Below are positions 28,054 to 64,000 of a stretch of 64,000 nucleotides of DNA, one piece after another. The position numbers were made by a program, and so were the translations under genes. This DNA comes from Gracilariopsis chorda (lineage: Eukaryota > Rhodophyta > Florideophyceae > Gracilariales > Gracilariaceae), in assembly GCA_003194525.1 (NCBI GenBank), contig NBIV01000003.1:772393-836392 (forward strand), read 5' to 3'. The notes beneath the pieces were generated by a model, which worked only from the letters and a program-made list of their open reading frames with translations, was not told the DNA's origin and did no database searches. Every line of letters starts with the position of its first letter. The first letter of the stretch is position 1.

Positions 28054-28158
28054 AGCCTTAGCACTTGCAACGAAACTTCGTGGCTCTTGTTCAGTGTTAT
28101 ATCGTTGGCTATTGTTTCGGTGTGGGTTTTGTTCATGCCTGCTTGAGTCCCATGGTCC

Positions 28159-29010
28159 CTACTTTCTGTTCTTGTTTCTCCTGGGGAAGCAATTTCTTCC
28201 GCGTTTAGGATGTCTGTTATTTGCGCGGTCAATCGTTCTTTTTACTCTGCATTCGGCGCGAATGTGTTCTAGTTTACCACAGTTCCAGGATATGACATAA
28301 TTGGATTTGAATGTGGATTGTTTTGGTCCAGCGTGATATATCTGGGCTGCTGGGTACGGATGTTGTCGCGCTTCATTTGTTTCTTGTGCCTTAGAGGTAG
28401 TTGCGGACTTTCGATGCTTTCTTCTGTCCATTTCAAAACGTACGAGGGAAACGACTTGATCGTATTCCATGTTATTGGCTTCAGCTAGGAGAGTGATCGC
28501 CATTAGAGATTCAGGGAGTGTTTTAAGTAGGCAGGCGGTGCGTTCGGGATCAGGTAGTCGATCTCCTAAGCGTGCAAGCTCTAAGAAAATGGTTTCCATG
28601 TCGTGCACGTGCTTCTGTATGTCTTCACCATCATGAAATATCATACCGTTTAGAAGTTGACGGAGGTTCATCTTCGACTGGATGTTGTCCTTCTCATAGG
28701 TTGATTCCAACCTCGCCCATACTTCTAATAAGGTGCAGTGCTCTCGTTCCAGTAAGTCTGAGACGGCGACGATTGGTTGTGTACCTAAGGTTTGCACGAT
28801 AATAGAACGTGCTTTCCTATTGGCATCGTCCCAGTGCTTTCGCACTTGGGCGCTACTTTGTCCCTCTATGGGTCGCTCTTGACTGAGCACGAAGAGTGCT
28901 TGTGAGGCTTGCATCAAGTCGCGAACGTATATACGCCAAGTATAGTAGTCTGCGTTTCCTTTTAAGCGGGTGACGTGCCTTGTATCTGTAACTCGATACC
29001 CATCCATCAC
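28159..29010 (-). CDS. Copia C Gag
   Basis: 283 residues, open throughout. The N-terminal half is the helical copia Gag fold (LKGNADYYTWRIYVRDLM, then VWARLESTYEKDN and LRQLLNGMIF). Near the C-terminus there is one zinc knuckle, WNCGKLEHIRAEC, with CX2CX4HX4C spacing if the first Cys is replaced (the readable form is S-W-N-C, so the first Cys appears lost). The tail is very basic (KRGRNCFPRRNKNRK). It would coat the element RNA in virus-like particles. Confidence 0.85.
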   Translation of the reverse strand: MMDGYRVTDTRHVTRLKGNADYYTWRIYVRDLMQASQALFVLSQERPIEGQSSAQVRKHWDDANRKARSIIVQTLGTQPIVAVSDLLEREHCTLLEVWARLESTYEKDNIQSKMNLRQLLNGMIFHDGEDIQKHVHDMETIFLELARLGDRLPDPERTACLLKTLPESLMAITLLAEANNMEYDQVVSLVRFEMDRRKHRKSATTSKAQETNEARQHPYPAAQIYHAGPKQSTFKSNYVISWNCGKLEHIRAECRVKRTIDRANNRHPKRGRNCFPRRNKNRK

Positions 29011-45776: not shown

Positions 45777-45887
45777 GTTTTAGGGGTTTTTAGGGGTTTT
45801 AGGGGTTTTTAGGGGTTTTTTAGGGGTTTTAGGGGATTTAAGGGGTTTTTAGGGGGCTTTTAGGGGTTTTTTAGGGGTTTTTTGGTT
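45777..45887 (+). repeat. Telomere-like repeats, T(4-6)AGGGG
   Basis: About ten units on the + strand, mostly TTTTAGGGG, TTTTTAGGGG and TTTTTTAGGGG, with a few off-type units (ATTTAAGGGG, AGGGGGC). The variable T count and constant AGGGG resemble a eukaryotic telomere G-strand. The G-rich strand runs 5' to 3' rightwards, so a chromosome end would be to the right. I do not know the telomere repeat of this organism, so its identity as telomere is inferred. Confidence 0.7.
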
Positions 45888-46213
45888 TAGGGGTTTTTTG
45901 CTTAAGGGGTGGGTGGGGGTGTGCGGCGTCGCGGGGGTTTAGGGGGAGAGAGCGGCTTAGGGGCTTAGGGGAAGCCCCTGATTTAGGGGAGGGTTATATA
46001 AGAGGAGGTTGAGAGAAAGAAGGAGGGAAGGGGAAAGAGGGAAGGGGAACGACTTAAGCTTGGCAGAGCGCTTTCGTCTTTATGACTCCTCAGTGCCTGG
46101 TGGGTTGACTGGGAGGAGAGAAGGGTCGGAGCGATTCCGGAGCCCTTATATACACTCCTGATCTACCCTAACACTAAGCTGCCGCTACCTCTTAACTACA
46201 TGTGTATGATGAC
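45888..46213 (-). other. 3' tail of copy 1
   Basis: Non-coding tail after the RT stop. On the + strand it runs from telomere-like repeats (GGGGTTTTTTGCTTAAGGGG) through GTGCGGCGTCGCGGGGG and a hairpin (45959-45979) to a TATA-like TTATATAA, a purine-rich stretch (46004-46050) and a segment with CACTCC near the RT stop. The same tail, with small changes, follows each copy. It would be the template end for target-primed reverse transcription. Confidence 0.7.
45994..46001. promoter_or_regulatory. TATA-like box in the 3' tail of copy 1
   Basis: TTATATAA is palindromic, so it fits either strand. In this copy no array ORF lies downstream on the minus strand. In copies 2-6 the same box faces the ORF1 of the neighbour. 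Confidence 0.45.
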
Positions 46214-48082
46214 TCACTCCAACGTTAAGAATTGTGGGCCATCTGCTTCGTTGGCTGCTGCGTTGGCTTCGCTGGCTTTGGCCCGTTCCTGCTTCTTCCA
46301 GAAGCGGTTCCAGTAAGCCACATACCTATGAAACATATTCTCTCGTGTGATCCTCCTCCGCGTGACATTACAACGAGTTGTCTTACGTGAGCGTGCTACA
46401 CGTGCACCTACATCTGTACTTCCAATACGTGCATGTACACGTGCACTAATTACACCTTTCCTGACATTGTCACCTTGTGTAAACAGCATAGTACGTGGCC
46501 ATCTCTCATGTAACTTTGGATTCACAAACTTAGTGTAAACCCATTGTTCCAGCAGCTTCCACGTATCTCTCACAAGTGGATGGTACTGACACTTGACAAC
46601 TTGGTCTAGTTCAGGAGGATCCCTAGTGACGCCTCGCAAATACTTGTCACGATCACGGTAACTTACATAATCCAATGCGACACGTAGCTGTTTTCCAGTA
46701 TACCCACGTTGTGCCAGCATTTGAAATAGAAAGTGTACCTTGTGCACCCAGGTTCGTTCATCGCTGGTGTTTCTCAGGTACCTGATTATTTCTCCTTTGA
46801 TAACACCAGTGAAAACGTGGTCTGGGTGGTTAGACTTGCCGTGGAGATAAAGAAATTTGGAGATAGGTTTCGTGTACACCTTGATGTCCACAATATTCCT
46901 GAAGAGGAATCTCCTTCCTTTATAGATCTCCAGATCCAGGTAGATAGCTCGCTGATCACTGATATCCCATGTAAAGTTGAGATTTGAGCATGCACTTAAC
47001 TTTTTCATGAGACTTTCAGCCGCTTCTCTGGATCGGAGGATCACGAAACCATCATCAATATATCTTCGGTTCATGATCACATCCTTGGCATAGTCCTTGA
47101 AGATCCTTCGGAACTTATAGAACAAGTACAAGTTGGCAAATGATGGAGCAACTGGTGTGCCCGTTGCTGTCCCAGTTACTTGTCTATAAACCCTTTCTCC
47201 TAGCTGCACGAAATTGTTGTTCATAATCAGCTGTAGGATACGACACCAGAAGCCATTGTTAGTCATGAATATTGAAGGTAGTTCACGAACCAACACCCGA
47301 ATGGCATCTTTGATGTCGATTGCAGGGTAGCACCTTTCTACGTCGTACGTTAGGAATGTACAGTCGTTGGGAAGGTGCATTTGTTCCAATTGTCTCACAG
47401 TCTGCCAGCTGTTCACAGTGATAGCCGGTATCTTTGCCACAACTTCGTTTAGAATTGAACTTAGTTGTCGCGACAATTCGGCCAGCATATATGAGTGTGA
47501 TGCTGTGATTGGCCTAGACTTGACTGTGGGCTTATGGATCTTCGGAAGTACATAAAAGGGAGCTGGGTCTTCGGCTTTCTTGGCGTATCGAATGATACTT
47601 TTCTCTTCCTTCTCGGGTAGTGGACACTGTTGCAAGATTTCAACGAGGTTACTGAGTACTCTTTCATGGGGGAAAGAAGACACTTCAGAGAATGCACCCC
47701 CGTTGATTTCTCCGTCCACTAGTCCGTCGTAGAAGTCAGAGCTCATAAGTGTGAGACCAAGGTTCTTATCCGATTCTTTGACGATCCAACCCTTTTCCTT
47801 AATGTACTTCATTCCTTGCACTATCGTTAAATGCAAGGAAGGGGGTCGATCAACATTCATCTTACTAACCACTCTCTCCAACTTGTGTTGAACACGAGTT
47901 ATGGTTTGTCGATCAACCCCGTCATACCCTCTCTTCAGAACCCTTGGCAGATCTGTCACAGCTTGTCCGAGTGACAGCCTGAGCGGCGATTGCAGAGAAA
48001 ACCCTCCTCCTACCGATAGTACCTTCTTCACATTATCCGGTACTTCGTTATGAGGTATGTTAATCGGAGGGTTGTACTTCAT
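46214..48082 (-). CDS. PLE reverse transcriptase, ORF2 of copy 1 (intact)
   Basis: 622 residues, open throughout. RT blocks in order: VKESDKNLGLTL (about 101-112), the PLE-type LPKIHKP then SRPITAS (about 189-205), FLTYDVERCYPAID with the first catalytic Asp (about 243-256), TGTATGTPVAPSFANLYL (about 303-320), and RRYIDDGFVI with the catalytic Asp pair (about 339-348). Then come LDLEIYKG and the PLE hallmark KPISKFLYLHGKSNHP (about 405-420) with GVIKGEIIRYLR. The C-terminal 200 residues are a helical, Arg-rich thumb and tail (RVARSRKTTRCNVTRRR). No GIY-YIG endonuclease is present at either end. The frame is open upstream of the ATG and overlaps the end of ORF1 in the -1 frame by about 30 codons. 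It should copy element RNA onto a chromosome 3' end in the nucleus. A telomere role is inferred from context. Confidence 0.9.
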   Translation of the reverse strand: MKYNPPINIPHNEVPDNVKKVLSVGGGFSLQSPLRLSLGQAVTDLPRVLKRGYDGVDRQTITRVQHKLERVVSKMNVDRPPSLHLTIVQGMKYIKEKGWIVKESDKNLGLTLMSSDFYDGLVDGEINGGAFSEVSSFPHERVLSNLVEILQQCPLPEKEEKSIIRYAKKAEDPAPFYVLPKIHKPTVKSRPITASHSYMLAELSRQLSSILNEVVAKIPAITVNSWQTVRQLEQMHLPNDCTFLTYDVERCYPAIDIKDAIRVLVRELPSIFMTNNGFWCRILQLIMNNNFVQLGERVYRQVTGTATGTPVAPSFANLYLFYKFRRIFKDYAKDVIMNRRYIDDGFVILRSREAAESLMKKLSACSNLNFTWDISDQRAIYLDLEIYKGRRFLFRNIVDIKVYTKPISKFLYLHGKSNHPDHVFTGVIKGEIIRYLRNTSDERTWVHKVHFLFQMLAQRGYTGKQLRVALDYVSYRDRDKYLRGVTRDPPELDQVVKCQYHPLVRDTWKLLEQWVYTKFVNPKLHERWPRTMLFTQGDNVRKGVISARVHARIGSTDVGARVARSRKTTRCNVTRRRITRENMFHRYVAYWNRFWKKQERAKASEANAAANEADGPQFLTLE

Positions 48083-48126
48083 GCTTCTGGGTTCAAAAGA
48101 GCGGGGCTTCCGTGGCCTTGAACGGT

Positions 48127-48960
48127 TTAATTTTGCTTGGCGCCCCGTCCGGTGGCGCCTCGCTTCCCGTTTTTCGGCCTTCCTTTGGATTTTCCTTTCG
48201 TCTTAGAAGCATTCCCCTGATTGCCTTTCTTCGGGTAAGGCTTTTCAGTCCTCTTTGGGCCTTGCTTCTTCTGAGAGTCTCGGATGCTCTTCACATCCTT
48301 TTTCAACGCTGAGAGCTCCTTCCGCAGCCGATCGACTCCCGTAGTATCTGGAGCCTCCACTTCATCGGCCTCGACAGCGGCTTTCTTCAGGAGATCAGCG
48401 GAACGTTTCTCAGATTCGACGAACGATCCAAAGGTGAGCTTAAGTTCAAACTTCATCCTGGACTTCTCCATATCTTCGTGGAGTTTGTCCATGTAGTTGG
48501 TCTTGAAGTCCTTCACTCGCTCATCTGTTAGGTCCGGGATGAGGTTATAAGCATGGTGTAGTGCTTCCTCGACCTTTACAGTGGCTTCTTTGAAGATGTC
48601 CTTACGCTCGCCATTCATTTCCTTGACATCATCGGCTCTGGCGTCAAGAAGGAGCTGAATGGCATCTTTGCAATAGCGTTCGGTAAGGACCTTGAACTTC
48701 TCACGGAACGATTCCTCCTGGGAACTAGGACATTGAGGCATGCGGGGCACTGCAATGGCCTTAGGGACAGTTCCTTTCTCTTGGTGTTCGAGTAGTTCAC
48801 TCAAGAGGGAGGTTCTTTTCACGATCTTCTCATCCAAATCCTGAACGCGTCGACGATACGGAGCGACGACTTTGTCCAGGTTCGGCTTCACCATGCCATA
48901 CAGTTCTTCATCCGAGTACTCTAGCGGTGGAGTCTCGGGAACCATGTTCTGAGGCGGCAT
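48127..48960 (-). CDS. PLE ORF1 protein of copy 1 (intact)
   Basis: 277 residues. It has no zinc knuckle or enzyme motif. Residues about 85-230 are strongly helical and charged (FREKFKVLTERYCKDAIQLL, VKVEEALHHAYNL, DKLHEDMEKSRMKFELKL, LRKELSALKKDVKSIRDS) and likely form coiled coils. The last 50 residues are Lys/Gly/Arg-rich (KKGNQGNASKTKGKSKGRPK) and would bind nucleic acid. It stands where a Gag-like or nucleocapsid protein would, 44 bp before ORF2 in the same transcript. Upstream ORFs with coiled coils are known in some telomeric PLEs. The ATG lies about 50 bp from the copy's 5' junction. It could coat the element RNA or tether it to chromosome ends; neither is shown. Confidence 0.8.
   Translation of the reverse strand: MPPQNMVPETPPLEYSDEELYGMVKPNLDKVVAPYRRRVQDLDEKIVKRTSLLSELLEHQEKGTVPKAIAVPRMPQCPSSQEESFREKFKVLTERYCKDAIQLLLDARADDVKEMNGERKDIFKEATVKVEEALHHAYNLIPDLTDERVKDFKTNYMDKLHEDMEKSRMKFELKLTFGSFVESEKRSADLLKKAAVEADEVEAPDTTGVDRLRKELSALKKDVKSIRDSQKKQGPKRTEKPYPKKGNQGNASKTKGKSKGRPKNGKRGATGRGAKQN
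48169..48175 (-). promoter_or_regulatory. Possible -1 frameshift heptamer in the ORF1/ORF2 overlap
   Basis: The minus strand reads G AAA AAC in the ORF1 frame, inside the stretch where the -1 frame is open into ORF2. It resembles, but does not match, the canonical A AAA AAC slip site. An internal start at the ORF2 ATG is the simpler alternative. Confidence 0.2.
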
Positions 48961-49081
48961 CTTCGGTGAATGATTGAGATCGGATTGGCGACGGCAACTA
49001 CCCCTCGGATTAGGGGTTTTTTGCTTTAGGGGTGGGTGGGGGTGTGCGGCGTCGCGGGGGTTTAGGGGGAGAGAGCGGCTT

Positions 49082-49102
49082 AGGGGCTTAGGGGAAGCCC
49101 CT
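49082..49102 (-). other. Hairpin with telomeric-complement loop
   Basis: AGGGGCTT (49082-49089) pairs with AAGCCCCT (49095-49102). In the sense RNA the loop is CCCCT and, with the next bases, reads CCCCUAA, complementary to the G-strand repeat. The hairpin is present in every junction (45959-45979 in copy 1). Confidence 0.5.
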
Positions 49103-49116
49103 GATTTAGGGGAGGG

Positions 49117-49124
49117 TTATATAA
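49117..49124 (-). promoter_or_regulatory. TATA-like box serving ORF1 of copy 1
   Basis: TTATATAA, 157 bp upstream of the copy 1 ORF1 ATG, but located inside the 3' tail of copy 2. Confidence 0.5.
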
Positions 49125-49313
49125 GAGGAGGTTGAGAGAAAGAAGGGGTTTTTAGGGGGGTTTTTAGGGGGCAGAGGCTTTTTCTTTATGACTCCTCAGT
49201 GCCTGGTGGGTTGACTGGGAGGAGAGAAGGGTCGGAGCGATTCCGGAGCCCTTATATACACTCCTGATCTACCCTAAACTGCCGCTACCTCTTAACTACA
49301 TGTGTATGATGAC

Positions 49314-51177
49314 TCACTCCAACGTTAAGAATTGTGGGCCATCTGCTTCGTTGGCTGCTGCGTTGGCTTCGCTGGCTTTGGCCCGTTCCTGCTTCTTCCA
49401 GAAGCGGTTCCAGTAAGCCACATACCTATGAAACATATTCTCTCGTGTGATCCTCCTCCGCGTGACATTACAACGAGTTGTCTTACGTGAGCGTGCTACA
49501 CGTGCACCTACATCTGTACTTCCAATACGTGCATGTACACGTGCACTAATTACACCTTTCCTGACATTGTCACCTTGTGTAAACAGCATAGTACGTGGCC
49601 ATCTCTCATGTAACTTTGGATTCACAAACTTAGTGTAAACCCATTGTTCCAGCAGCTTCCACGTATCTCTCACAAGTGGATGGTACTGACACTTGACTTG
49701 GTCTAGTTCAGGAGGATCCCTAGTGACGCCTCGCAAATACTTGTCACGATCACGGTAACTTACATAATCCAATGCGACACGTAGCTGTTTTCCAGTATAC
49801 CCACGTTGTGCCAGCATTTGAAATAGAAAGTGTACCTTGTGCACCCAGGTTCGTTCATCGCTGGTGTTTCTCAGGTACCTGATTATTTCTCCTTTGATAA
49901 CACCAGTGAAAACGTGGTCTGGTTAGACTTGCCGTGGAGATAAAGAAATTTGGAGATAGGTTTCGTGTACACCTTGATGTCCACAATATTCCTGAAGAGG
50001 AATCTCCTTCCTTTATAGATCTCCAGATCCAGGTAGATAGCTCGCTGATCACTGATATCCCATGTAAAGTTGAGATTTGAGCATGCACTTAACTTTTTCA
50101 TGAGACTTTCAGCCGCTTCTCTCTGGATCGGAGGATCACGAAACCATCATCAATATATCTTCGGTTCATGATCACATCCTTGGCATAGTCCTTGAAGATC
50201 CTTCGGAACTTATAGAACAAGTACAAGTTGGCAAATGATGGAGCAACTGGTGTGCCCGTTGCTGTCCCAGTTACTTGTCTATAAACCCTTTCTCCTAGCT
50301 GCACGAAATTGTTGTTCATAATCAGCTGTAGGATACGACACCAGAAGCCATTGTTAGTCATGAATATTGAAGGTAGTTCACGAACCAACACCCGAATGGC
50401 ATCTTTGATGTCGATTGCAGGGTAGCACCTTTCTACGTCGTACGTTAGGAATGTACAGTCGTTGGGAAGGTGCATTTGTTCCAATTGTCTCACAGTCTGC
50501 CAGCTGTTCACAGTGATAGCCGGTATCTTTGCCACAACTTCGTTTAGAATTGAACTTAGTTGTCGCGACAATTCGGCCAGCATATATGAGTGTGATGCTG
50601 TGATTGGCCTAGACTTGACTGTGGGCTTATGGATCTTCGGAAGTACATAAAAGGGAGCTGGTCTTCGGCTTTCTTGGCGTATCGAATGATACTTTTCTCT
50701 TCCTTCTCGGGTAGTGGACACTGTTGCAAGATTTCAACGAGGTTACTGAGTACTCTTTCATGGGGAAAGAAGACACTTCAGAGAATGCACCCCCGTTGAT
50801 TTCTCCGTCCACTAGTCCGTCGTAGAAGTCAGAGCTCATAAGTGTGAGACCAAGGTTCTTTATCCGATTCTTTGACGATCCAACCCTTTTCCTTAATGTA
50901 CTTCATTCCTTGCACTATCGTTAAATGCAAGGAAGGGGGTCGATCAACATTCATCTTTACTAACCACTCTCTCCAACTTGTGTTGAACACGAGTTATGGT
51001 TTGTCGATCAACCCCGTCATACCCTCTCTTCAGAACCCTTGGCAGATCTGTCACAGCTTGTCCGAGTGACAGCCTGAGCGGCGATTGCAGAGAAAACCCT
51101 CCTCCTACCGATAGTACCTTCTTCACATTATCCGGTACTTCGTTATGAGGTATGTTAATCGGAGGGTTGTACTTCAT
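49314..51177 (-). pseudogene. PLE reverse transcriptase, copy 2 (several indels)
   Basis: Same protein as copy 1 ORF2 but split into frames 49314-49844, 49883-50101, 50098-50721, 50627-50839 and 50944-51177. Differences from copy 1 are small indels: one codon lost near 49697, four bases lost near 49921, two gained near 50122, and single-base changes near 50661, 50763, 50860 and 50956. The YIDD block is intact. Confidence 0.85.
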
Positions 51178-51221
51178 GCTTCTGGGTTCAAAAGAGCGGG
51201 GCTTCCGTGGCCTTGAACGGT

Positions 51222-52050
51222 TTAATTTTGCTTGGCGCCCCGTCCGGTGGCGCCTCGCTTCCCGTTTTTCGGCCTTCCTTTGGATTTTCCTTTCGTCTTA
51301 GAAGCATTCCCCTGATTGCCTTTCTTCGGGTAAGGCTTTTCAGTCCTCTTTGGGCCTTGCTTCTTCTGAGAGTCTCGGATGCTCTTCACATCCTTTTTCA
51401 ACGCTGAGAGCTCCTTCCGCAGCCGATCGACTCCCGTAGTATCTGGAGCCTCCACTTCATCGGCCTCGACAGCGGCTTTCTTCAGGAGATCAGCGGAACG
51501 TTTCTCAGATTCGACGAACGATCCAAAGGTGAGCTTAAGTTCAAACTTCATCCTGGACTTCTCCATATCTTCGTGGAGTTTGTCCATGTAGTTGGTCTTG
51601 AAGTCCTTCACTCGCTCATCTGTTAGGTCCGGGATGAGGTTATAAGCATGGTGTAGTGCTTCCTCGACCTTTACAGTGGCTTCTTTGAAGATGTCCTTAC
51701 GCTCGCCATTCATTTCCTTGACATCATCTGGCGTCAAGAAGGAGCTGAATGGCATCTTTGCAATAGCGTTCGGTAAGGACCTTGAACTTCTCACGGAACG
51801 ATTCCTCCTGGGAACTAGGACATTGAGGCATGCGGGGCACTGCAATGGCCTTAGGGACAGTTCCTTTCTCTTGGTGTTCGAGTAGTTCACTCAAGAGGGA
51901 GGTTCTTTTCACGATCTTCTCATCCAAATCCTGAACGCGTCGACGATACGGAGCGACGACTTTGTCCAGGTTCGGCTTCACCATGCCATACAGTTCTTCA
52001 TCCGAGTACTCTAGCGGTGGAGTCTCGGGAACCATGTTCTGAGGCGGCAT
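51222..52050 (-). pseudogene. PLE ORF1, copy 2 (frameshifted)
   Basis: N-terminal part open at 51724-52050 and C-terminal part at 51222-51728. A five-base loss near 51729 separates them. Otherwise identical or nearly so to copy 1. Confidence 0.85.
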
Positions 52051-52100
52051 CTTCGGTGAATGATTGAGATCGGATTGGCGACGGCAACTACCCCTCGGAT

Positions 52101-52425
52101 TAGGGGTTTTTTGCTTTAGGGGTGGGTGGGGGTGTGCGGCGTCGCGGGGGTTTAGGGGGAGAGAGCGGCTTAGGGGCTTAGGGGAAGCCCCTGATTTAGG
52201 GGAGGGTTATATAAGAGGAGGTTGAGAGAAAGAAGGAGGGAAGGGGAAAGAGGGAAGGGAACGACTTAAGCTTGGCAGAGCGCTTTCGTCTTTATGACTC
52301 CTCAGTGCCTGGTGGGTTGACTGGGAGGAGAGAAGGGTCGGAGCGATTCCGGAGCCCTTATATACACTCCTGATCTACCCTAACACTAAGCTGCCGCTAC
52401 CTCTTAACTACATGTGTATGATGAC
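52101..52425 (-). other. 3' tail of copy 3, with TATA-like box
   Basis: Matches the copy 1 tail without the telomere patch seen in copy 2. The TTATATAA at 52207-52214 is 157 bp upstream of the copy 2 ORF1 start. Confidence 0.65.
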
Positions 52426-54293
52426 TCACTCCAACGTTAAGAATTGTGGGCCATCTGCTTCGTTGGCTGCTGCGTTGGCTTCGCTGGCTTTGGCCCGTTC
52501 CTGCTTCTTCCAGAAGCGGTTCCAGTAAGCCACATACCTATGAAACATATTCTCTCGTGTGATCCTCCTCCGCGTGACATTACAACGAGTTGTCTTACGT
52601 GAGCGTGCTACACGTGCACCTACATCTGTACTTCCAATACGTGCATGTACACGTGCACTAATTACACCTTTCCTGACATTGTCACCTTGTGTAAACAGCA
52701 TAGTACGTGGCCATCTCTCATGTAACTTTGGATTCACAAACTTAGTGTAAACCCATTGTTCCAGCAGCTTCCACGTATCTCTCACAAGTGGATGGTACTG
52801 ACACTTGACAACTTGGTCTAGTTCAGGAGGATCCCTAGTGACGCCTCGCAAATACTTGTCACGATCACGGTAACTTACATAATCCAATGCGACACGTAGC
52901 TGTTTTCCAGTATACCCACGTTGTGCCAGCATTTGAAATAGAAAGTGTACCTTGTGCACCCAGGTTCGTTCATCGCTGGTGTTTCTCAGGTACCTGATTA
53001 TTTCTCCTTTGATAACACCAGTGAAAACGTGGTCTGGGTGGTTAGACTTGCCGTGGAGATAAAGAAATTTGGAGATAGGTTTCGTGTACACCTTGATGTC
53101 CACAATATTCCTGAAGAGGAATCTCCTTCCTTTATAGATCTCCAGATCCAGGTAGATAGCTCGCTGATCACTGATATCCCATGTAAAGTTGAGATTTGAG
53201 CATGCACTTAACTTTTTCATGAGACTTTCAGCCGCTTCTCTGGATCGGAGGATCACGAAACCATCATCAATATATCTTCGGTTCATGATCACATCCTTGG
53301 CATAGTCCTTGAAGATCCTTCGGAACTTATAGAACAAGTACAAGTTGGCAAATGATGGAGCAACTGGTGTGCCCGTTGCTGTCCCAGTTACTTGTCTATA
53401 AACCCTTTCTCCTAGCTGCACGAAATTGTTGTTCATAATCAGCTGTAGGATACGACACCAGAAGCCATTGTTAGTCATGAATATTGAAGGTAGTTCACGA
53501 ACCAACACCCGAATGGCATCTTTGATGTCGATTGCAGGGTAGCACCTTTCTACGTCGTACGTTAGGAATGTACAGTCGTTGGGAAGGTGCATTTGTTCCA
53601 ATTGTCTCACAGTCTGCCAGCTGTTCACAGTGATAGCCGGTATCTTTGCCACAACTTCGTTTAGAATTGAACTTAGTTGTCGCGACAATTCGGCCAGCAT
53701 ATATGAGTGTGATGCTGTGATTGGCCTAGACTTGACTGTGGGCTTATGGATCTTCGGAAGTACATAAAAGGGAGCTGGGTCTTCGGCTTTCTGGCGTATC
53801 GAATGATACTTTTCTCTTCCTTCTCGGGTAGTGGACACTGTTGCAAGATTTCAACGAGGTTACTGAGTACTCTTTCATGGGGGAAAGAAGACACTTCAGA
53901 GAATGCACCCCCGTTGATTTCTCCGTCCACTAGTCCGTCGTAGAAGTCAGAGCTCATAAGTGTGAGACCAAGGTTCTTATCCGATTCTTTGACGATCCAA
54001 CCCTTTTCCTTAATGTACTTCATTCCTTGCACTATCGTTAAATGCAAGGAAGGGGGTCGATCAACATTCATCTTACTAACCACTCTCTCCAACTTGTGTT
54101 GAACACGAGTTATGGTTTGTCGATCAACCCCGTCATACCCTCTCTTCAGAACCCTTGGCAGATCTGTCACAGCTTGTCCGAGTGACAGCCTGAGCGGCGA
54201 TTGCAGAGAAAACCCTCCTCCTACCGATAGTACCTTCTTCACATTATCCGGTACTTCGTTATGAGGTATGTTAATCGGAGGGTTGTACTTCAT
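52426..54293 (-). pseudogene. PLE reverse transcriptase, copy 3 (one frameshift)
   Basis: Open for 470 codons from the stop (52426-53838) and again to the ATG (53673-54293). A single base lost near 53791 breaks it in the LPKIHKP region's upstream flank. All catalytic blocks are in the longer piece. Confidence 0.85.
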
Positions 54294-54337
54294 GCTTCTG
54301 GGTTCAAAAGAGCGGGGCTTCCGTGGCCTTGAACGGT

Positions 54338-55157
54338 TTAATTTTGCTTGGCGCCCCGTCCGGGGCGCCTCGCTTCCCGTTTTTCGGCCTTCCTTTGGAT
54401 TTTCCTTTCGTCTTAGAAGCATTCCCCTGATTGCGGGGGCTTTCAGTCCTCTTTGGGCCTTGCTTCTTCTGAGAGTCTCGGATGCTCTTCACATCCTTTT
54501 TCAACGCTGAGAGCTCCTTCCGCAGCCGATCGACTCCCGTAGTATCTGGAGCCTCCACTTCATCGGCCTCGACAGCGGCTTTCTTCAGGAGATCAGCGGA
54601 ACGTTTCTCAGATTCGACGAACGATCCAAAGGTGAGCTTAAGTTCAAACTTCATCCTGGACTTCTCCATATCTTCGTGGAGTTTGTCCATGTAGTTGGTC
54701 TTGAAAGTCCTTCACTCGCTCATCTGTTAGGTCCGGGATGAGGTTATAAGCATGGTGTAGTGCTTCCTCGACCTTTACAGTGGCTTCTTTGAAGATGTCC
54801 TTACGCTCGCCATTCATTTCCTTGACATCATCGGCTCTGGCGTCAAGAAGGAGCTGAATGGCATCTTTGCAATAGCGTTCGGTAAGGACCTTGAACTTCT
54901 CACGGAACGATTCCTCCTGGGAACTAGGACATTGAGGCATGCGGGGCACTGCAATGGCCTTAGGGACAGTTCCTTTCTCTTGGTGTTCGAGTAGTTCACT
55001 CAAGAGGGAGGTTCTTTTCACGATCTTCTCATCCAAATCCTGAACGCGTCGACGATACGGAGCGACGACTTTGTCCAGGTTCGGCTTCACCATGCCATAC
55101 AGTTCTTCATCGAGTACTCTAGCGGTGAGTCTCGGGAACCATGTTCTGAGGCGGCAT
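54338..55157 (-). pseudogene. PLE ORF1, copy 3 (several lesions)
   Basis: Pieces at 54304-54690 and 54644-55093. Lesions: a base lost near 54364, a replaced stretch near 54434, a base gained near 54705, and two bases lost near 55110-55126 that separate the ATG from the frame. Confidence 0.8.
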
Positions 55158-55207
55158 CTTCGGTGAATGATTGAGATCGGATTGGCGACGGCAACTACCC
55201 CTCGGAT

Positions 55208-55532
55208 TAGGGGTTTTTTGCTTTAGGGGTGGGTGGGGGTGTGCGGCGTCGCGGGGGTTTAGGGGGAGAGAGCGGCTTAGGGGCTTAGGGGAAGCCCCTG
55301 ATTTAGGGAGGGTTATATAAGAGGAGGTTGAGAGAAAGAAGGAGGGAAGGGGAAAGAGGGAAGGGGAACGACTTAAGCTTGGCAGAGCGCTTTCGTCTTT
55401 ATGACTCCTCAGTGCCTGGTGGGTTGACTGGGAGGAGAGAAGGGTCGGAGCGATTCCGGAGCCCTTATATACACTCCTGATCTACCCTAACACTAAGCTG
55501 CCGCTACCTCTTAACTACATGTGTATGATGAC
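55208..55532 (-). other. 3' tail of copy 4, with TATA-like box
   Basis: The usual tail; TTATATAA at 55313-55320, about 156 bp upstream of the copy 3 ORF1 start at 55157. Confidence 0.65.
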
Positions 55533-57400
55533 TCACTCCAACGTTAAGAATTGTGGGCCATCTGCTTCGTTGGCTGCTGCGTTGGCTTCGCTGGCTTTGG
55601 CCCGTTCCTGCTTCTTCCAGAAGCGGTTCCAGTAAGCCACATACCTATGAAACATATTCTCTCGTGTGATCCTCCTCCGCGTGACATTACAACGAGTTGT
55701 CTTACGTGAGCGTGCTACACGTGCACCTACATCTGTACTTCCAATACGTGCATGTACACGTGCACTAATTACACCTTTCCTGACATTGTCACCTTGTGTA
55801 AACAGCATAGTACGTGGCCATCTCTCATGTAACTTTGGATTCACAAACTTAGTGTAAACCCATTGTTCCAGCAGCTTCCACGTATCTCTCACAAGTGGAT
55901 GGTACTGACACTTGACAACTTGGTCTAGTTCAGGAGGATCCCTAGTGACGCCTCGCAAATACTTGTCACGATCACGGTAACTTACATAATCCAATGCGAC
56001 ACGTAGCTGTTTTCCAGTATACCCACGTTGTGCCAGCATTTGAAATAGAAAGTGTACCTTGTGCACCCAGGTTCGTTCATCGCTGGTGTTTCTCAGGTAC
56101 CTGATTATTTCTCCTTTGATAACACCAGTGAAAACGTGGTCTGGGTGGTTAGACTTGCCGTGGAGATAAAGAAATTTGGAGATAGGTTTCGTGTACACCT
56201 TGATGTCCACAATATTCCTGAAGAGGAATCTCCTTCCTTTATAGATCTCCAGATCCAGGTAGATAGCTCGCTGATCACTGATATCCCATGTAAAGTTGAG
56301 ATTTGAGCATGCACTTAACTTTTTCATGAGACTTTCAGCCGCTTCTCTGGATCGGAGGATCACGAAACCATCATCAATATATCTTCGGTTCATGATCACA
56401 TCCTTGGCATAGTCCTTGAAGATCCTTCGGAACTTATAGAACAAGTACAAGTTGGCAAATGATGGAGCAACTGGTGTGCCCGTTGCTGTCCCAGTTACTT
56501 GTCTATAAACCCTTTCTCCTAGCTGCACGAAATTGTTGTTCATAATCAGCTGTAGGATACGACACCAGAAGCCATTGTTAGTCATGAATATTGAAGGTAG
56601 TTCACGAACCAACACCCGAATGGCATCTTTGATGTCGATTGCAGGGTAGCACCTTTCTACGTCGTACGTTAGGAATGTACAGTCGTTGGGAAGGTGCATT
56701 TGTTCCAATTGTCTCACAGTCTGCCAGCTGTTCACAGTGATAGCCGGTATCTTTGCCACAACTTCGTTTAGAATTGAACTTAGTTGTCGCGACAATTCGG
56801 CCAGCATATATGAGTGTGATGCTGTGATTGGCCTAGACTTGACTGTGGGCTTATGGATCTTCGGAAGTACATAAAAGGGAGCTGGGTCTTCGGCTTTCTT
56901 GGCGTATCGAATGATACTTTTCTCTTCCTTCTCGGGTAGTGGACACTGTTGCAAGATTTCAACGAGGTTACTGAGTACTCTTTCATGGGGGAAAGAAGAC
57001 ACTTCAGAGAATGCACCCCCGTTGATTTCTCCGTCCACTAGTCCGTCGTAGAAGTCAGAGCTCATAAGTGTGAGACCAAGGTTCTTATCCGATTCTTTGA
57101 CGATCCAACCCTTTTCCTTAATGTACTTCATTCCTTGCACTATCGTTAAATGCAAGGAAGGGGGTCGATCAACATTCATCTTACTAACCACTCTCTCCAA
57201 CTTGTGTTGAACACGAGTTATGGTTTGTCGATCAACCCCGTCATACCCTCTCTTCAGAACCCTTGGCAGATCTGTCACAGCTTGTCCGAGTGACAGCCTG
57301 AGGGCGATTGCAGAGAAAACCCTCCTCCTACCGATAGTACCTTCTTCACATTATCCGGTACTTCGTTATGAGGTATGTTAATCGGAGGGTTGTACTTCAT
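55533..57400 (-). pseudogene. PLE reverse transcriptase, copy 4 (open except near the start)
   Basis: 581 codons open (55533-57278) with every RT block. One base lost near 57302 puts the first 40 or so codons out of frame, so translation from the normal ATG would fail. It is the second-best preserved ORF2 of the array. Confidence 0.85.
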
Positions 57401-57410
57401 GCTTCTGGGT

Positions 57411-58277
57411 TCAAAAGAGCGGGGCTTCCGTGGCCTTGAACGGTTTAATTTTGCTTGGCGCCCCGTCCGGTGGCGCCTCGCTTCCCGTTTTTCGGCCTTC
57501 CTTTGGATTTTCCTTTCGTCTTAGAAGCATTCCCTGATTGCCTTTCTTCGGGTAAGGCTTTTCAGTCCTCTTTGGGCCTTGCTTCTTCTGAGAGTCTCGG
57601 ATGCTCTTCACATCCTTTTTCAACGCTGAGAGCTCCTTCCGCAGCCGATCGACTCCCGTAGTATCTGGAGCCTCCACTTCATCGGCCTCGACAGCGGCTT
57701 TCTTCAGGAGATCAGCGGAACGTTTCTCAGATTCGACGAACGATCCAAAGGTGAGCTTAAGTTCAAACTTCATCCTGGACTTCTCCATATCTTCGTGGAG
57801 TTTGTCCATGTAGTTGGTCTTGAAGTCCTTCACTCGCTCATCTGTTAGGTCCGGGATGAGGTTATAAGCATGGTGTAGTGCTTCCTCGACCTTTACAGTG
57901 GCTTCTTTGAAGATGTCCTTACGCTCGCCATTCATTTCCTTGACATCATCGGCTCTGGCGTCAAGAAGGAGCTGAATGGCATCTTTGCAATAGCGTTCGG
58001 TAAGGACCTTGAACTTCTCACGGAACGATTCCTCCTGGGAACTAGGACATTGAGGCATGCGGGGCACTGCAATGGCCTTAGGGACAGTTCCTTTCTCTTG
58101 GTGTTCGAGTAGTTCACTCAAGAGGGAGGTTCTTTTCACGATCTTCTCATCCAAATCCTGAACGCGTCGACGATACGGAGCGACGACTTTGTCCAGGTTC
58201 GGCTTCACCATGCCATACAGTTCTTCATCCGAGTACTCTAGCGGTGGAGTCTCGGGAACCATGTTCTGAGGCGGCAT
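57411..58277 (-). CDS. PLE ORF1, copy 4 (altered C-terminus)
   Basis: 288 residues. Identical in style to copy 1 up to KKGNQG. Then a base lost near 57533 switches to another frame, still basic (LLRRKENPKEGRKTGSEAPP), ending later than usual. The helical core is unaffected, but the normal Lys/Gly tail is lost. Confidence 0.8.
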   Translation of the reverse strand: MPPQNMVPETPPLEYSDEELYGMVKPNLDKVVAPYRRRVQDLDEKIVKRTSLLSELLEHQEKGTVPKAIAVPRMPQCPSSQEESFREKFKVLTERYCKDAIQLLLDARADDVKEMNGERKDIFKEATVKVEEALHHAYNLIPDLTDERVKDFKTNYMDKLHEDMEKSRMKFELKLTFGSFVESEKRSADLLKKAAVEADEVEAPDTTGVDRLRKELSALKKDVKSIRDSQKKQGPKRTEKPYPKKGNQGMLLRRKENPKEGRKTGSEAPPDGAPSKIKPFKATEAPLF

Positions 58278-58327
58278 CTTCGGTGAATGATTGAGATCGG
58301 ATTGGCGACGGCAACTACCCCTCGGAT

Positions 58328-58647
58328 TAGGGGTTTTTTGCTTTAGGGGTGGGTGGGGTGTGCGGCGTCGCGGGGGTTTAGGGGAGAGAGCGGCTTAGGG
58401 GCTTAGGGGAAGCCCCTGATTTAGGGGAGGGTTATATAAGAGGAGGTTGAGAAAGAAGGAGGAAGGGGAAAGAGGGAAGGGGAACGACTTAAGCTTGGCA
58501 GAGCGCTTTCGTCTTTATGACTCCTCAGTGCCTGGTGGTTGACTGGGAGGAGAGAAGGGTCGGAGCGATTCCGGAGCCCTTATATACACTCCTGATCTAC
58601 CCTAACACTAAGCTGCCGCTACCTCTTAACTACATGTGTATGATGAC
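58328..58647 (-). other. 3' tail of copy 5, with TATA-like box
   Basis: The usual tail with small losses in G runs. TTATATAA at 58432-58439, 155 bp upstream of the copy 4 ORF1 start. Confidence 0.65.
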
Positions 58648-60512
58648 TCACTCCAACGTTAAGAATTGTGGGCCATCTGCTTCGTTGGCTGCTGCGTTGG
58701 CTTCGCTGGCTTTGGCCCGTTCCTGCTTCTTCCAGAAGCGGTTCCAGTAAGCCACATACCTATGAAACATATTCTCTCGTGTGATCCTCCTCCGCGTGAC
58801 ATTACAACGAGTTGTCTTACGTGAGCGTGCTACACGTGCACCTACATCTGTACTTCCAATACGTGCATGTACACGTGCACTAATTACACCTTTCCTGACA
58901 TTGTCACCTTGTGTAAACAGCATAGTACGTGGCCATCTCTCATGTAACTTTGGATTCACAAACTTAGTGTAAACCCATTGTTCCAGCAGCTTCCACGTAT
59001 CTCTCACAAGTGGATGGTACTGACACTTGACAACTTGGTCTAGTTCAGGAGGATCCCTAGTGACGCCTCGCAAATACTTGTCACGATCACGGTAACTTAC
59101 ATAATCCAATGCGACACGTAGCTGTTTTCCAGTATACCCACGTTGTGCCAGCATTTGAAATAGAAAGTGTACCTTGTGCACCCAGGTTCGTTCATCGCTG
59201 GTGTTTCTCAGGTACCTGATTATTTCTCCTTTGATAACACCAGTGAAAACGTGGTCTGGGTGGTTAGACTTGCCGTGGAGATAAAGAAATTTGGAGATAG
59301 GTTTCGTGTACACCTTGATGTCCACAATATTCCTGAAGAGGAATCTCCTTCCTTTATAGATCTCCAGATCCAGGTAGATAGCTCGCTGATCACTGATATC
59401 CCATGTAAAGTTGAGATTTGAGCATGCACTTAACTTTTTCATGAGACTTTCAGCCGCTTCTCTGGATCGGAGGATCACGAAACCATCATCAATATATCTT
59501 CGGTTCATGATCACATCCTTGGCATAGTCCTTGAAGATCCTTCGGAATAGAACAAGTACAAGTTGGCAAATGATGGAGCAACTGGTGTGCCCGTTGCTGT
59601 CCCAGTTACTTGTCTATAAACCCTTTCTCCTAGCTGCACGAAATTGTTGTTCATAATCAGCTGTAGGATACGACACCAGAAGCCATTGTTAGTCATGAAT
59701 ATTGAAGGTAGTTCACGAACCAACACCCGAATGGCATCTTTGATGTCGATTGCAGGGTAGCACCTTTCTACGTCGTACGTTAGGAATGTACAGTCGTTGG
59801 GAAGGTGCATTTGTTCCAATTGTCTCACAGTCTGCCAGCTGTTCACAGTGATAGCCGGTATCTTTGCCACAACTTCGTTTAGAATTGAACTTAGTTGTCG
59901 CGACAATTCGGCCAGCATATATGAGTGTGATGCTGTGATTGGCCTAGACTTGACTGTGGGCTTATGGATCTTCGGAAGTACATAAAAGGGAGCTGGGTCT
60001 TCGGCTTTCTTGGCGTATCGAATGATACTTTTCTCTTCCTTCTCGGGTAGTGGACACTGTTGCAAGATTTCAACGAGGTTACTGAGTACTCTTTCATGGG
60101 GGAAAGAAGACACTTCAGAGAATGCACCCCCGTTGATTTCTCCGTCCACTAGTCCGTCGTAGAAGTCAGAGCTCATAAGTGTGAGACCAAGGTTCTTATC
60201 CGATTCTTTGACGATCCAACCCTTTTCCTTAATGTACTTCATTCCTTGCACTATCGTTAAATGCAAGGAAGGGGGTCGATCAACATTCATCTTACTAACC
60301 ACTCTCTCCAACTTGTGTTGAACACGAGTTATGGTTTGTCGATCAACCCCGTCATACCCTCTCTTCAGAACCCTTGGCAGATCTGTCACAGCTTGTCCGA
60401 GTGACAGCCTGAGCGGCGATTGCAGAGAAAACCCTCCTCCTACCGATAGTACCTTCTTCACATTATCCGGTACTTCGTTATGAGGTATGTTAATCGGAGG
60501 GTTGTACTTCAT
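58648..60512 (-). pseudogene. PLE reverse transcriptase, copy 5 (one frameshift)
   Basis: The N-terminal 333-codon frame (59511-60512) ends after the NLYLFY block. The C-terminal 288-codon frame (58648-59514) starts just before YIDD. A four-base loss near 59547 separates them. Confidence 0.85.
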
Positions 60513-60556
60513 GCTTCTGGGTTCAAAAGAGCGGGGCTTCCGTGGCCTTGAACGGT

Positions 60557-61388
60557 TTAATTTTGCTTGGCGCCCCGTCCGGTGGCGCCTCGCTTCCCGT
60601 TTTTCGGCCTTCCTTTGGATTTTCCTTTCGTCTTAGAAGCATTCCCCTGATTGCCTTTCTTCGGGTAAGGCTTTTCAGTCCTCTTTGGGCCTTGCTTCTT
60701 CTGAGAGTCTCGGATGCTCTTCACATCCTTTTTCAACGCTGAGAGCTCCTTCCGCAGCCGATCGACTCCCGTAGTATCTGGAGCCTCCACTTCATCGGCC
60801 TCGACAGCGGCTTTCTTCAGGAGATCAGCGGAACGTTTCTCAGATTCGACGAACGATCCAAAGGTGAGCTTAAGTTCAAACTTCATCCTGGACTTCTCCA
60901 TATCTTCGTGGAGTTTGTCCATGTAGTTGGTCTTGAAGTCCTTCACTCGCTCATCTGTTAGGTCCGGGATGAGGTTATAAGCATGGTGTAGTGCTTCCTC
61001 GACCTTTACAGTGGCTTCTTTGAAGATGTCCTTACGCTCGCCATTCATTTCCTTGACATCATCGGCTCTGGCGTCAAGAAGGAGCTGAATGGCATCTTTG
61101 CAATAGCGTTCGGTAAGGACCTTGAACTTCTCACGGAACGATTCCCTGGGAACTAGGACATTGAGGCATGCGGGGCACTGCAATGGCCTTAGGGACAGTT
61201 CCTTTCTCTTGGTGTTCGAGTAGTTCACTCAAGAGGGAGGTTCTTTTCACGATCTTCTCATCCAAATCCTGAACGCGTCGACGATACGGAGCGACGACTT
61301 TGTCCAGGTTCGGCTTCACCATGCCATACAGTTCTTCATCCGAGTACTCTAGCGGTGGAGTCTCGGGAACCATGTTCTGAGGCGGCAT
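60557..61388 (-). pseudogene. PLE ORF1, copy 5 (one frameshift)
   Basis: The N-terminal frame 61131-61388 and the C-terminal frame 60557-61145 are separated by a two-base loss near 61144. The rest matches copy 1. Confidence 0.85.
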
Positions 61389-61438
61389 CTTCGGTGAATG
61401 ATTGAGATCGGATTGGCGACGGCAACTACCCCTCGGAT

Positions 61439-61763
61439 TAGGGGTTTTTTGCTTTAGGGTGGGTGGGGGTGTGCGGCGTCGCGGGGGTTTAGGGGGAGAG
61501 AGCGGCTTAGGGGCTTAGGGGAAGCCCCTGATTTAGGGGAGGGTTATATAAGAGGAGGTTGAGAGAAAGAAGGAGGGAAGGGGAAAGAGGGAAGGGGAAC
61601 GACTTAAGCTTGGCAGAGCGCTTTCGTCTTTATGACTCCTCAGTGCCTGGTGGGTTGACTGGGAGGAGAGAAGGGTCGGAGCGATTCCGGAGCCCTTATA
61701 TACACTCCTGATCTACCCTAACACTAAGCTGCCGCTACCTCTTAACTACATGTGTATGATGAC
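61439..61763 (-). other. 3' tail of copy 6, with TATA-like box
   Basis: The usual tail; TTATATAA at 61544-61551, 156 bp upstream of the copy 5 ORF1 start. Confidence 0.65.
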
Positions 61764-63620
61764 TCACTCCAACGTTAAGAATTGTGGGCCATCTGCTTCG
61801 TTGGCTGCTGCGTTGGCTTCGCTGGCTTTGGCCCGTTCCTGCTTCTTCCAGAAGCGGTTCCAGTAAGCCACATACCTATGAAACATATTCTCTCGTGTGA
61901 TCCTCCTCCGCGTGACATTACAACGAGTTGTCTTACGTGAGCGTGCTACACGTGCACCTACATCTGTACTTCCAATACGTGCATGTACACGTGCACTAAT
62001 TACACCTTTCCTGACATTGTCACCTTGTGTAAACAGCATAGTACGTGGCCATCTCTCATGTAACTTTGCTTGTGTAAACCCATTGTTCCAGCAGCTTCCA
62101 CGTATCTCTCACAAGTGGATGGTACTGACACTTGACAACTTGGTCTAGTTCAGGAGGATCCCTAGTGACGCCTCGCAAATACTTGTCACGATCACGGTAA
62201 CTTACATAATCCAATGCGACACGTAGCTGTTTTCCAGTATACCCACGTTGTGCCAGCATTTGAAATAGAAAGTGTACCTTGTGCACCCAGGTTCGTTCAT
62301 CGCTGGTGTTTCTCAGGTACCTGATTATTTTCTCCTTTGATAACACCAGTGAAAACGTGGTCTGGGTGGTTAGACTTGCCGTGGAGATAAAGAAATTTGG
62401 AGATAGGTTTCGTGTACACCTTGATGTCCACAATATTCCTGAAGAGGAATCTCCTTCCTTTATAGATCTCCAGATCCAGGTAGATAGCTCGCTGATCACT
62501 GATATCCCATGTAAAGTTGAGATTTGAGCATGCACTTAACTTTTTCATGAGACTTTCAGCCGCTTCTCTGGATCGGAGGATCACGAAACCATCATCAATA
62601 TATCTTCGGTTCATGATCACATCCTTGGCATAGTCCTTGAAGATCCTTCGGAACTTATAGAACAAGTACAAGTTGGCAAATGATGGAGCAACTGGTGTGC
62701 CCGTTGCTGTCCCAGTTACTTGTCTATAAACCCTTTCTCCTAGCTGCACGAAATTGTTGTTCATAATCAGCTGTAGGATACGACACCAGAAGCCATTGTT
62801 AGTCATGAATATTGAAGGTAGTTCACGAACCAACACCCGAATGGCATCTTTGATGTCGATTGCAGGGTAGCACCTTTCTACGTCGTACGTTAGGAATGTA
62901 CAGTCGTTGGGAAGGTGCATTTGTTCCAATTGTCTCACAGTCTGCCAGCTGTTCACAGTGATAGCCGGTATCTTTGCCACAACTTCGTTTAGAATTGAAC
63001 TTAGTTGTCGCGACAATTCGGCCATATATATGAGTGTGATGCTGTGATTGGCCTAGACTTGACTGTGGGCTTATGGATCTTCGGAAGTACATAAAAGGGA
63101 GCTGGGGTCTTCGGCTTTCTTGGCGTATCGAATGATACTTTTCTCTTCCTTCTCGGGTAGTGGACACTGTTGCAAGATTTCAACGAGGTTACTGAGTACT
63201 CTTTCATGGGGGAAAGAAGACACTTCAGAGAATGCACCCCGTTGATTTCTCCGTCCACTAGTCCGTCGTAGAAGTCAGAGCTCATAAGTGTGAGACCAAG
63301 GTTCTTATCCGATTCTTTGACGATCCAACCCTTTTCCTTAATGTACTTCATTCCTTGCACTATCGTTAAATGCAAGGAAGGGGTCGATCAACATTCATCT
63401 TACTAACCACTCTCTCCAACTTGTGTTGAACACGAGTTATGGTTTGTCGATCAACCCCGTCATACCCTCTCTTCAGAACCCTTGGCAGATCTGTCACAGC
63501 TTGTCCGAGTGACAGCCTGAGCGGCGATTGCAGAGAAAACCCTCCTCCTACCGATAGTACCTTCTTCACATTATCCGGTACTTCGTTATGAGGTATGTTA
63601 ATCGGAGGGTTGTACTTCAT
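61764..63620 (-). pseudogene. PLE reverse transcriptase, copy 6 (several indels)
   Basis: Split into frames 61764-62039, 62056-62330, 62297-63025, 63001-63375 and 63366-63620. The changes include an 11-base loss with altered bases near 62069, a base gained near 62328, a loss near 63025, a gain near 63105 and losses near 63239 and 63381. The catalytic core (62297-63025) is open. Confidence 0.82.
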
Positions 63621-63665
63621 GCTTCTGGGTTCAAAAGAGCGGGGCTTCCGTGGCCTTGAACGGTT

Positions 63666-64000
63666 TTAATTTTGCTTGGCGCCCCGTCCGGTGGCGCCTC
63701 GCTTCCCGTTTTTCGGCCTTCCTTTGGATTTTCCTTTCGTCTTAGAAGCATTCCCCTGATTGCCTTTCTTCGGGTAAGGCTTTTCAGTCCTCTTTGGGCC
63801 TTGCTTCTTCTGAGAGTCTCGGATGCTCTTCACATCCTTTTTCAACGCTGAGAGCTCCTTCCGCAGCCGATCGACTCCCGTAGTATCTGGAGCCTCCACT
63901 TCATCGGCCTCGACAGCGGCTTTTTCAGGAGATCAGCGGAACGTTTCTCAGATTCGACGAACGATCCAAAGGTGAGCTTAAGTTCAAACTTCATCCTGGA
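63666..64000 (-). pseudogene. PLE ORF1, copy 6 (C-terminal part, cut by the window edge)
   Basis: The basic tail and last helix are readable (63666-63899). Two bases are lost near 63923. The N-terminal part is beyond the window. Confidence 0.8.

Follow-up and report, generated by a model that had tools for sequence, protein, structure and literature searches.

An endonuclease-deficient Penelope-like retroelement that very probably adds itself to red algal telomeres

The last 18 kb of a 64,000-nucleotide stretch of the genome of the red alga Gracilariopsis chorda (the window; C3:772393-836392, where C3 is contig NBIV01000003.1 and a window position is the C3 position minus 772392) are occupied by a tandem array of a short retroelement with two open reading frames (ORFs). 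A comparison of sequences within the window and across the 91.3 Mb genome (1,081 contigs) leads us to conclude that the element is very probably an endonuclease-deficient Penelope-like retroelement (PLE) that adds itself to the telomeres of its host.

Structure of the array

The window ends where contig C3 ends (836,392 bp), and the array runs up to that end. On the plus strand it starts directly after a 129 bp telomeric tract (45777-45905, plus strand), in which the G strand, T(3-6)AGGGG, points toward the contig end; the same repeat is terminal elsewhere on 19 contigs. Five complete copies of 3.06-3.10 kb follow, with a sixth cut by the contig end, and all lie on the minus strand. Copy 1 (45910-49004) has its 3′ end at the telomeric tract and its 5′ end distal. 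Copies 2 (49033-52094), 3 (52123-55201), 4 (55230-58321), 5 (58350-61432) and 6 (61460-64000) are 98.3-99.9% identical to it. A preliminary description of this DNA, made from the sequence alone, had reported six nearly identical 3.1 kb copies in one orientation; the orientation and the identity hold, whereas the count becomes five complete copies and one part. The T(n)AGGGG start block and the TTAGGGG joins that it described are both real. Neighbouring copies are separated by 27-28 nt, with an identical ACTACCCCTCGGATTAGGGG in all five joins, and the junction between copies 1 and 2 (49005-49032) includes TTAGGGG. Chance recurrence is unlikely, as the array units are found again on many contigs of the genome.

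Only copy 1 has both ORFs intact, and copies 2-6 each have at least one broken frame. When ten copies of the family to which the array belongs (family A, below) were compared, about 22 indel events were found per pair, against 0.34% substitutions (about ten per pair). This dominance of indels suggests residual long-read consensus error near an unresolved repeat, with real decay as the alternative.

Reverse transcriptase and relatives

ORF2 (46214-48082, minus strand; 622 residues from the first ATG) encodes a predicted Penelope-type reverse transcriptase (RT). A domain search returned RVT_1 at 2.7e-8 and no match to GIY-YIG, so that the GIY-YIG/RT fusion of canonical PLEs was not encountered; the whole genome yielded a single GIY-YIG frame, of 291 codons, on C359. 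Searching the genome with ORF2 gave at least 74 matches (71 of 369 first-look candidates were scored, and the counts are lower bounds). Family A is present on C3, C263 and C58. Family B is about 62-63% identical to it and has a 3,264 bp unit, and family C is about 52% identical to it with a unit of about 2,976 bp. Many copies of families B and C have open frames, of 653 and 606 codons.

Among 7,999 candidate proteins scored, at least 135 were related to ORF2 at E values up to 0.001, and 120 of these were listed. In the aligned relatives RVT_1 was found in 42 of 53 and GIY-YIG in two of 53. A tree was built from 52 different sequences, comprising 45 of the 120 listed relatives, seven rows of our own and TERT, with no named PLE. 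Families A, B and C form one clade with 27 other rows (support 100/100); the two RT-GIY-YIG rows fall outside this clade and TERT forms a very long outgroup branch. The assignment to the Penelope/telomerase type of RT is thus made by resemblance to RT-GIY-YIG proteins. A profile search of the PDB with ORF2 matched RTs weakly (best 1.2e-7; telomerase 0.025). That ORF2 belongs to an endonuclease-deficient Penelope-type retroelement, as the preliminary description had proposed, is well supported by these comparisons.

The relatives extend beyond this genome. One of them, P0002, matches family B almost exactly, and its source is probably the same species. IMG/VR held no relatives, and a search of genome contigs returned four distant loci, with 25-28% identity, in bacterial records. 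For 66 of the 83 closest metagenome relatives the longest contig is 3.0-4.2 kb, or about one unit, as would be expected if those relatives were also tandem, although short assemblies alone could yield contigs of this length. The 83 relatives may represent an extensive clade, so far undescribed, whose members are likewise arranged in tandem.

Terminal repeat and attachment of the element

The TTTTAGGGG doublet has 104 matches in the genome, against three for a reversed control, and the TTTTTAGGGG doublet (T5AG4) has 335, against one in the control. The listed matches to the former (100 of 104) are distributed over 30 contigs; among them the repeat lies within 1 kb of the contig end on 19 contigs, and the G strand points outward in 19 of 19 (sign test, 3.8e-6). 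On the remaining 11 contigs, tracts lie beside elements on six (C3, C58, C263, C269, C343 and C505), away from the ends on C71 and C723, and with a spacing in multiples of some 1.7 kb on C406, C756 and C898. Seven tracts were read directly, and their commonest units are T5AG4, T4AG4 and T6AG4. The preliminary description had left room for a different telomere repeat, but runs of three TTTAGGG or four TTAGGG were looked for in the genome and not found. On these patterns, T(n)AGGGG is the terminal repeat of this genome.

The 3′ ends of nine copies were examined, on C3, C263 and C58 (family A), C151 and C247 (family B), and C117, C269 and twice C343 (family C). Every one of them continues into repeats of the CCCCTAAAA type, and the tracts differ from one another. 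For eight of them the stopping point is specific to the family; the inner end on C343 is shorter. Truncated copies are also flanked by the repeat on their 5′ side: at the terminus of C247 a family B copy is broken inside ORF1, and T(4-6)AGGGG fills the remainder of the contig up to its final base, and on C343 a 5′-truncated family C copy lies between two telomeric tracts. Stubs of 187 nt, consisting of part of the 3′ untranslated region (UTR; a hammerhead motif and the tail, described below), lie between telomeric pieces, two on C343 (12374-12764) and one on C117 (242495-242680). The three stubs have a nearly equal 5′ end, about 50 nt past the TATATAAGG box, and may have been copied from short transcripts initiated within the 3′ UTR. 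C306 was also considered as a case of an element capped directly by a telomere and was rejected, since the 701 bases beside its tract are non-element sequence. A proximal 3′ end, a distal 5′ end and 5′ truncation together fit target-primed reverse transcription from a G-strand end.

Placement in the genome

Positions of copies were assigned on 14 contigs with lengths of 50 kb or more, in a table that is incomplete because it draws on partly listed and partly scored matches. On 12 of these contigs the copies lie within 20 kb of a contig end, and in 11 of the 12 (C3, C117, C151, C193, C247, C263, C266, C269, C306, C319 and C343) the 5′ end points toward the nearer end (sign test, 0.006). The element thus combines 3′ ends joined to telomeric repeats with a fixed orientation at contig ends, as in elements of the Athena/Coprina type. 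Interior sites are a minority among the contigs placed, and the telomere association claimed in the preliminary description is borne out by the nine 3′ ends and by arrays on several contig ends.

The same description likened the arrays to the HeT-A/TART telomeres of Drosophila. HeT-A, TART and TAHRE likewise form head-to-tail arrays at chromosome ends with the 5′ end outward, and the algal arrays do reach several contig ends. The Drosophila elements, however, belong to the non-LTR (long terminal repeat) class of RT and their host lacks telomerase, whereas the alga has a TERT gene (C110:29860-30267): an RNA-binding domain (E 5.3e-28) was found in a 1,138-codon frame, and the 1,031 codons examined also match RVT_1, with a further C-terminal match that falls slightly short of its cut-off. 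Moreover, 19 contigs end in simple T(n)AGGGG with no element within the reported pattern distance, and C247 shows telomeric repeats added onto an element. The presence of TERT indicates that telomerase has not been replaced as in Drosophila. With the simple repeats at contig ends it leads us to reject such a replacement and to regard the likeness as too strongly drawn; that the elements are the main means of chromosome-end maintenance is highly improbable.

The quality of the assembly raises a different concern, namely that the arrays might largely be an artefact built from a few real insertions. Many of the array contigs are only about 17-25 kb long, arrays run to contig ends and the family A copies differ mostly by indels, all of which such an artefact could produce. 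It would not account for the agreement of orientation and 3′ junctions across large contigs, nor for three families that are clearly distinct in sequence and unit length. On these grounds we reject artefact as the whole story and give it only a very slight probability as the main explanation, while copy numbers and array lengths remain uncertain in this assembly.

ORF1 and expression of ORF2

ORF1 (48127-48960, minus strand) encodes 277 residues and matches no Pfam family above the cut-off. Three relatives were found, which have in common with it a C-terminal GRGAKQN; one of them comes from a EukProt transcriptome, so that some eukaryote transcribes a homologue of ORF1. The RT frame of all three families lies in the -1 frame relative to ORF1 and overlaps its end. 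In copy 1 the whole open RT frame has 662 codons (46214-48202, minus strand), and the overlap contains a candidate -1 frameshift site (48139-48174, minus strand), in which AAAAAC is followed by a GGCGCC-type hairpin.

The AAA AAC of the overlap is followed 6-9 nt downstream by a hairpin of the GGCGC type. The classical A AAA AAC is present at the family B site on C461 but not everywhere: families A and C have G AAA AAC, and family B on C151 has A AAG AAC. Family B has no ATG at the position of the ORF2 ATG of family A, and the protein sequence there is conserved between the two families. The second full copy on C343 and one copy on C746 have an 883-codon frame in which ORF1 and ORF2 are fused; the fusion on C343 results from one additional A in AAAAAC and could be a sequencing error. 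The overlap peptide was found in none of the 146 proteins searched, a result of little weight, since gene callers start their predictions at start codons. Taken together, the arrangement of the frames points, indirectly, to -1 frameshifting as the probable route by which ORF2 is expressed, as a fusion with ORF1. Neither the frame overlap nor the hammerhead motif described next was part of the preliminary description.

The 3′ untranslated region

The 3′ UTR of all three families contains the motif GGCACTGANGAGTC(A/G)TAAAGACGAAAGCGCTCTGCC, which is equal between A, B and C at 34 of 36 positions. It resembles the core of a hammerhead ribozyme and is intact in five of the six window copies, all on the minus strand: 46062-46097 (copy 1), 52274-52309 (copy 3), 55381-55416 (copy 4), 58497-58532 (copy 5) and 61612-61647 (copy 6). 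In copy 2 the motif (49170-49203, minus strand) has a changed core. Part of the usual sequence in the tail of this copy (49130-49203) is replaced by TTTTTAGGGG-like repeats, which may reflect a real event or consensus error.

We read the motif as a putative minimal type I hammerhead with helix I GGCA/UGCC, core CUGANGA, helix II GUC/GAC and GAAA; GCGC would presumably replace helix III, and cleavage would be predicted after GCGCUC. A strict pattern of the core has 169 matches in the genome, 100 of them listed, and none in the control. Minimal type I hammerheads without helix III are known from PLEs (PMC7761336, PMC6155905), and are carried by Terminons too (PMC7761336).

The UTR around the motif is poorly conserved with two exceptions, both common to the three families. 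The TATATAAGG box upstream of the hammerhead motif (46144-46152, minus strand) is a possible promoter for the neighbouring unit, and a 13 nt tail block, GCGACGCCGCACA (45920-45932, minus strand), is identical in A, B and C. The hammerhead motif is set apart from the telomeric repeats by a C-rich tail, about 140-157 nt long. The sole Rfam match over 44 kb of arrays, to mir-650 in the family B 3′ UTR, was below threshold (31.4 bits, gathering 100) and was rejected.

Growth of the arrays

Tandem units are a known property of PLEs, which are described as tandem or partly tandem (PMC11167929), and the algal element has them. A scan for joins that demanded an exact 18 nt 5′ start found nine family A joins on two contigs and 24 family B joins on five. 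The two family A arrays show no fixed difference. Between family B arrays there are 0-17 fixed substitution differences per contig pair, with 0-2 shared polymorphic columns.

Several observations weigh against the view that the element adds itself to telomeres. Within each family the joins are equal apart from single-base differences, and the family B arrays are homogenised per contig, which is unexpected under fresh end-additions. The copy on C157 points inward, the sole exception among the 12 end-near contigs. On C27 and C58 the copies are internal, lying some 87-89 kb away from the right end, and the C58 copy is 5′-truncated against ordinary DNA; on C117 an ORF1 at 230032, 26 kb short of the contig end, is degenerate and inverted. 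The hammerhead assignment is also open to doubt: Rfam RF00163 gives the same alignment of the motif, with a score of 13.2 bits against a gathering score of 34 (E 0.95), and shuffled sequences fold as well as the isolated 36-mers, folding alone being uninformative.

Independent end-additions with fresh 5′ ends should vary the joins, and the near-invariance of the joins points to an RNA that spans the junction or to recombination. The comparison suggests that the arrays grow by one of these routes and not only by fresh end-additions. A further unit in the genome bears on the second route. At C756:450-2250 a non-PLE unit of about 1.7 kb, seemingly tandem, has T(n)AGGGG repeats on both sides and holds an apparent copia-type RT fragment (by eye); C406 and C898 show like spacing. 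This suggests that recombination can build such arrays here.

These data give some weight to a rival explanation in which the arrays are satellite DNA of the subtelomeres: a small number of old PLE insertions next to telomeric tracts would have been multiplied by unequal exchange or break-induced replication. Recombination would now carry them from one chromosome end to another, with current retrotransposition slight or absent. The near-invariant junctions, the pattern of fixed and shared differences in family B and the tandem 1.7 kb unit with telomeric repeats at its joins would all follow. The satellite explanation is less easily reconciled with nine 3′ ends on tracts of differing sequence in three families, with different breakpoints in the two truncated copies that have telomeric 5′ flanks, with the open frames retained by many B and C copies or with the ORF1 relative in the EukProt transcriptome. 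We consider it unlikely, though by no means negligible, and retain addition of the element to telomeres as the best explanation.

Proposed mechanism

If the element adds itself to telomeres, its RNA, ending in CCCCUAA(A), would pair with the G-rich overhang, and the 3′-OH of that overhang would prime reverse transcription. The insertion would be laid down 3′ end first, halting at the 5′ end of the RNA or before it, and telomerase or another element would then extend the new end. Within arrays the unit junction would be inherited, either through an RNA that spans two units in the style of pseudo-LTRs or through multiplication of units by recombination. In the former case the 3′ UTR of the neighbour would supply the promoter and the hammerhead to the junction-spanning RNA. 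Transcripts in this model would be initiated close to the TATATAAGG box of the adjoining unit and terminate in CCCCUAAA, and ORF2 would probably be produced from them as the -1 frameshift fusion. The full combination, a gag-pol-like telomeric PLE with a -1 fusion, a junction-spanning RNA that uses the promoter and hammerhead of its neighbour, complementary DNA primed by a telomerase-made G overhang and arrays that are pseudo-LTR multimers beside a working telomerase, is put forward tentatively, as possible rather than probable.

Other features of the window and genome

Two single-exon genes lie outside the array. The first (window 5754-7682) is prenylcysteine-oxidase-like, its best named relative being a Gracilaria domingensis prenylcysteine oxidase (61% identity over 96%), and the second (9843-11381) encodes a proline-rich cyclin (Pfam Cyclin, 4e-30). 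Long frames at 1-4522 and 26335-29010 resemble the gag-pol of LTR retrotransposons by eye, Gypsy-like and Copia-like, respectively. Elsewhere in the genome, a nuclear frame at C193:122113-122385 has a weak phycobilisome-family match (28.1 bits) and, by eye, an apparent N-terminal transit region.

Relation to known elements

By description only, the algal element is like Coprina, a telomere-associated, endonuclease-deficient PLE; Gladyshev and Arkhipova reportedly described Coprina elements from fungi and others in 2007. The closest parallel available in more detail is with the Terminons/Athena of bdelloid rotifers. Endonuclease-deficient PLEs are described that have two ORFs, are typically 4-6 kb long and form long head-to-tail or interspersed arrays at telomeres (PMC6431247). 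The claim of the preliminary description that a two-ORF family in such arrays is new thus does not stand. In Terminon 3′ ends, reverse-complement telomeric repeats are described as immediately following a hammerhead (PMC6431247). In common with Terminons/Athena, the algal element has an RT that is not fused to a GIY-YIG of its own, attaches to telomeric repeats and carries these repeats, as reverse complement, at its 3′ end past the hammerhead motif; its 5′ truncation by telomeric repeats and its head-to-tail or interspersed arrays are further shared features (PMC6431247). Terminons, however, reach 40 kb and carry several accessory ORFs, whereas the algal unit is about 3.0-3.3 kb long with two ORFs only, has its C-rich tail between hammerhead motif and repeats, and is found in another host with another telomere repeat. 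A possible further difference is the -1 frame overlap of its ORFs.

Poseidon of Anolis, a canonical GIY-YIG PLE, is also similar in its telomerase-like RT, tandem copies with pseudo-LTRs and hammerhead motif (PMC11167929). The algal element differs from it in having no endonuclease domain and in apparently inserting into telomeric ends rather than nicked sites. A literature search by title and start of abstract, with partial coverage, found no report of such elements in red algae. Apparently new here are the shortness of the unit, joins that hardly vary, a possible frameshift and a red algal host whose telomere is T(3-6)AGGGG.

Telomere parasites of this type are known from rotifers, and the element appears to extend them to a new branch of life. 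Penelope-like RTs have a common ancestry with telomerase (PMC6431247), and elements that prime on telomeric ends would be a close living parallel to the way in which a retroelement might have turned into telomerase. Information on red algal telomere sequences is described as mostly missing or fragmentary (PMC7046594). Here T(3-6)AGGGG as terminal repeat, a gene for TERT and three families of telomere-dwelling elements occur together in a single organism, which would make priming, frameshifting and competition with telomerase testable in that organism.

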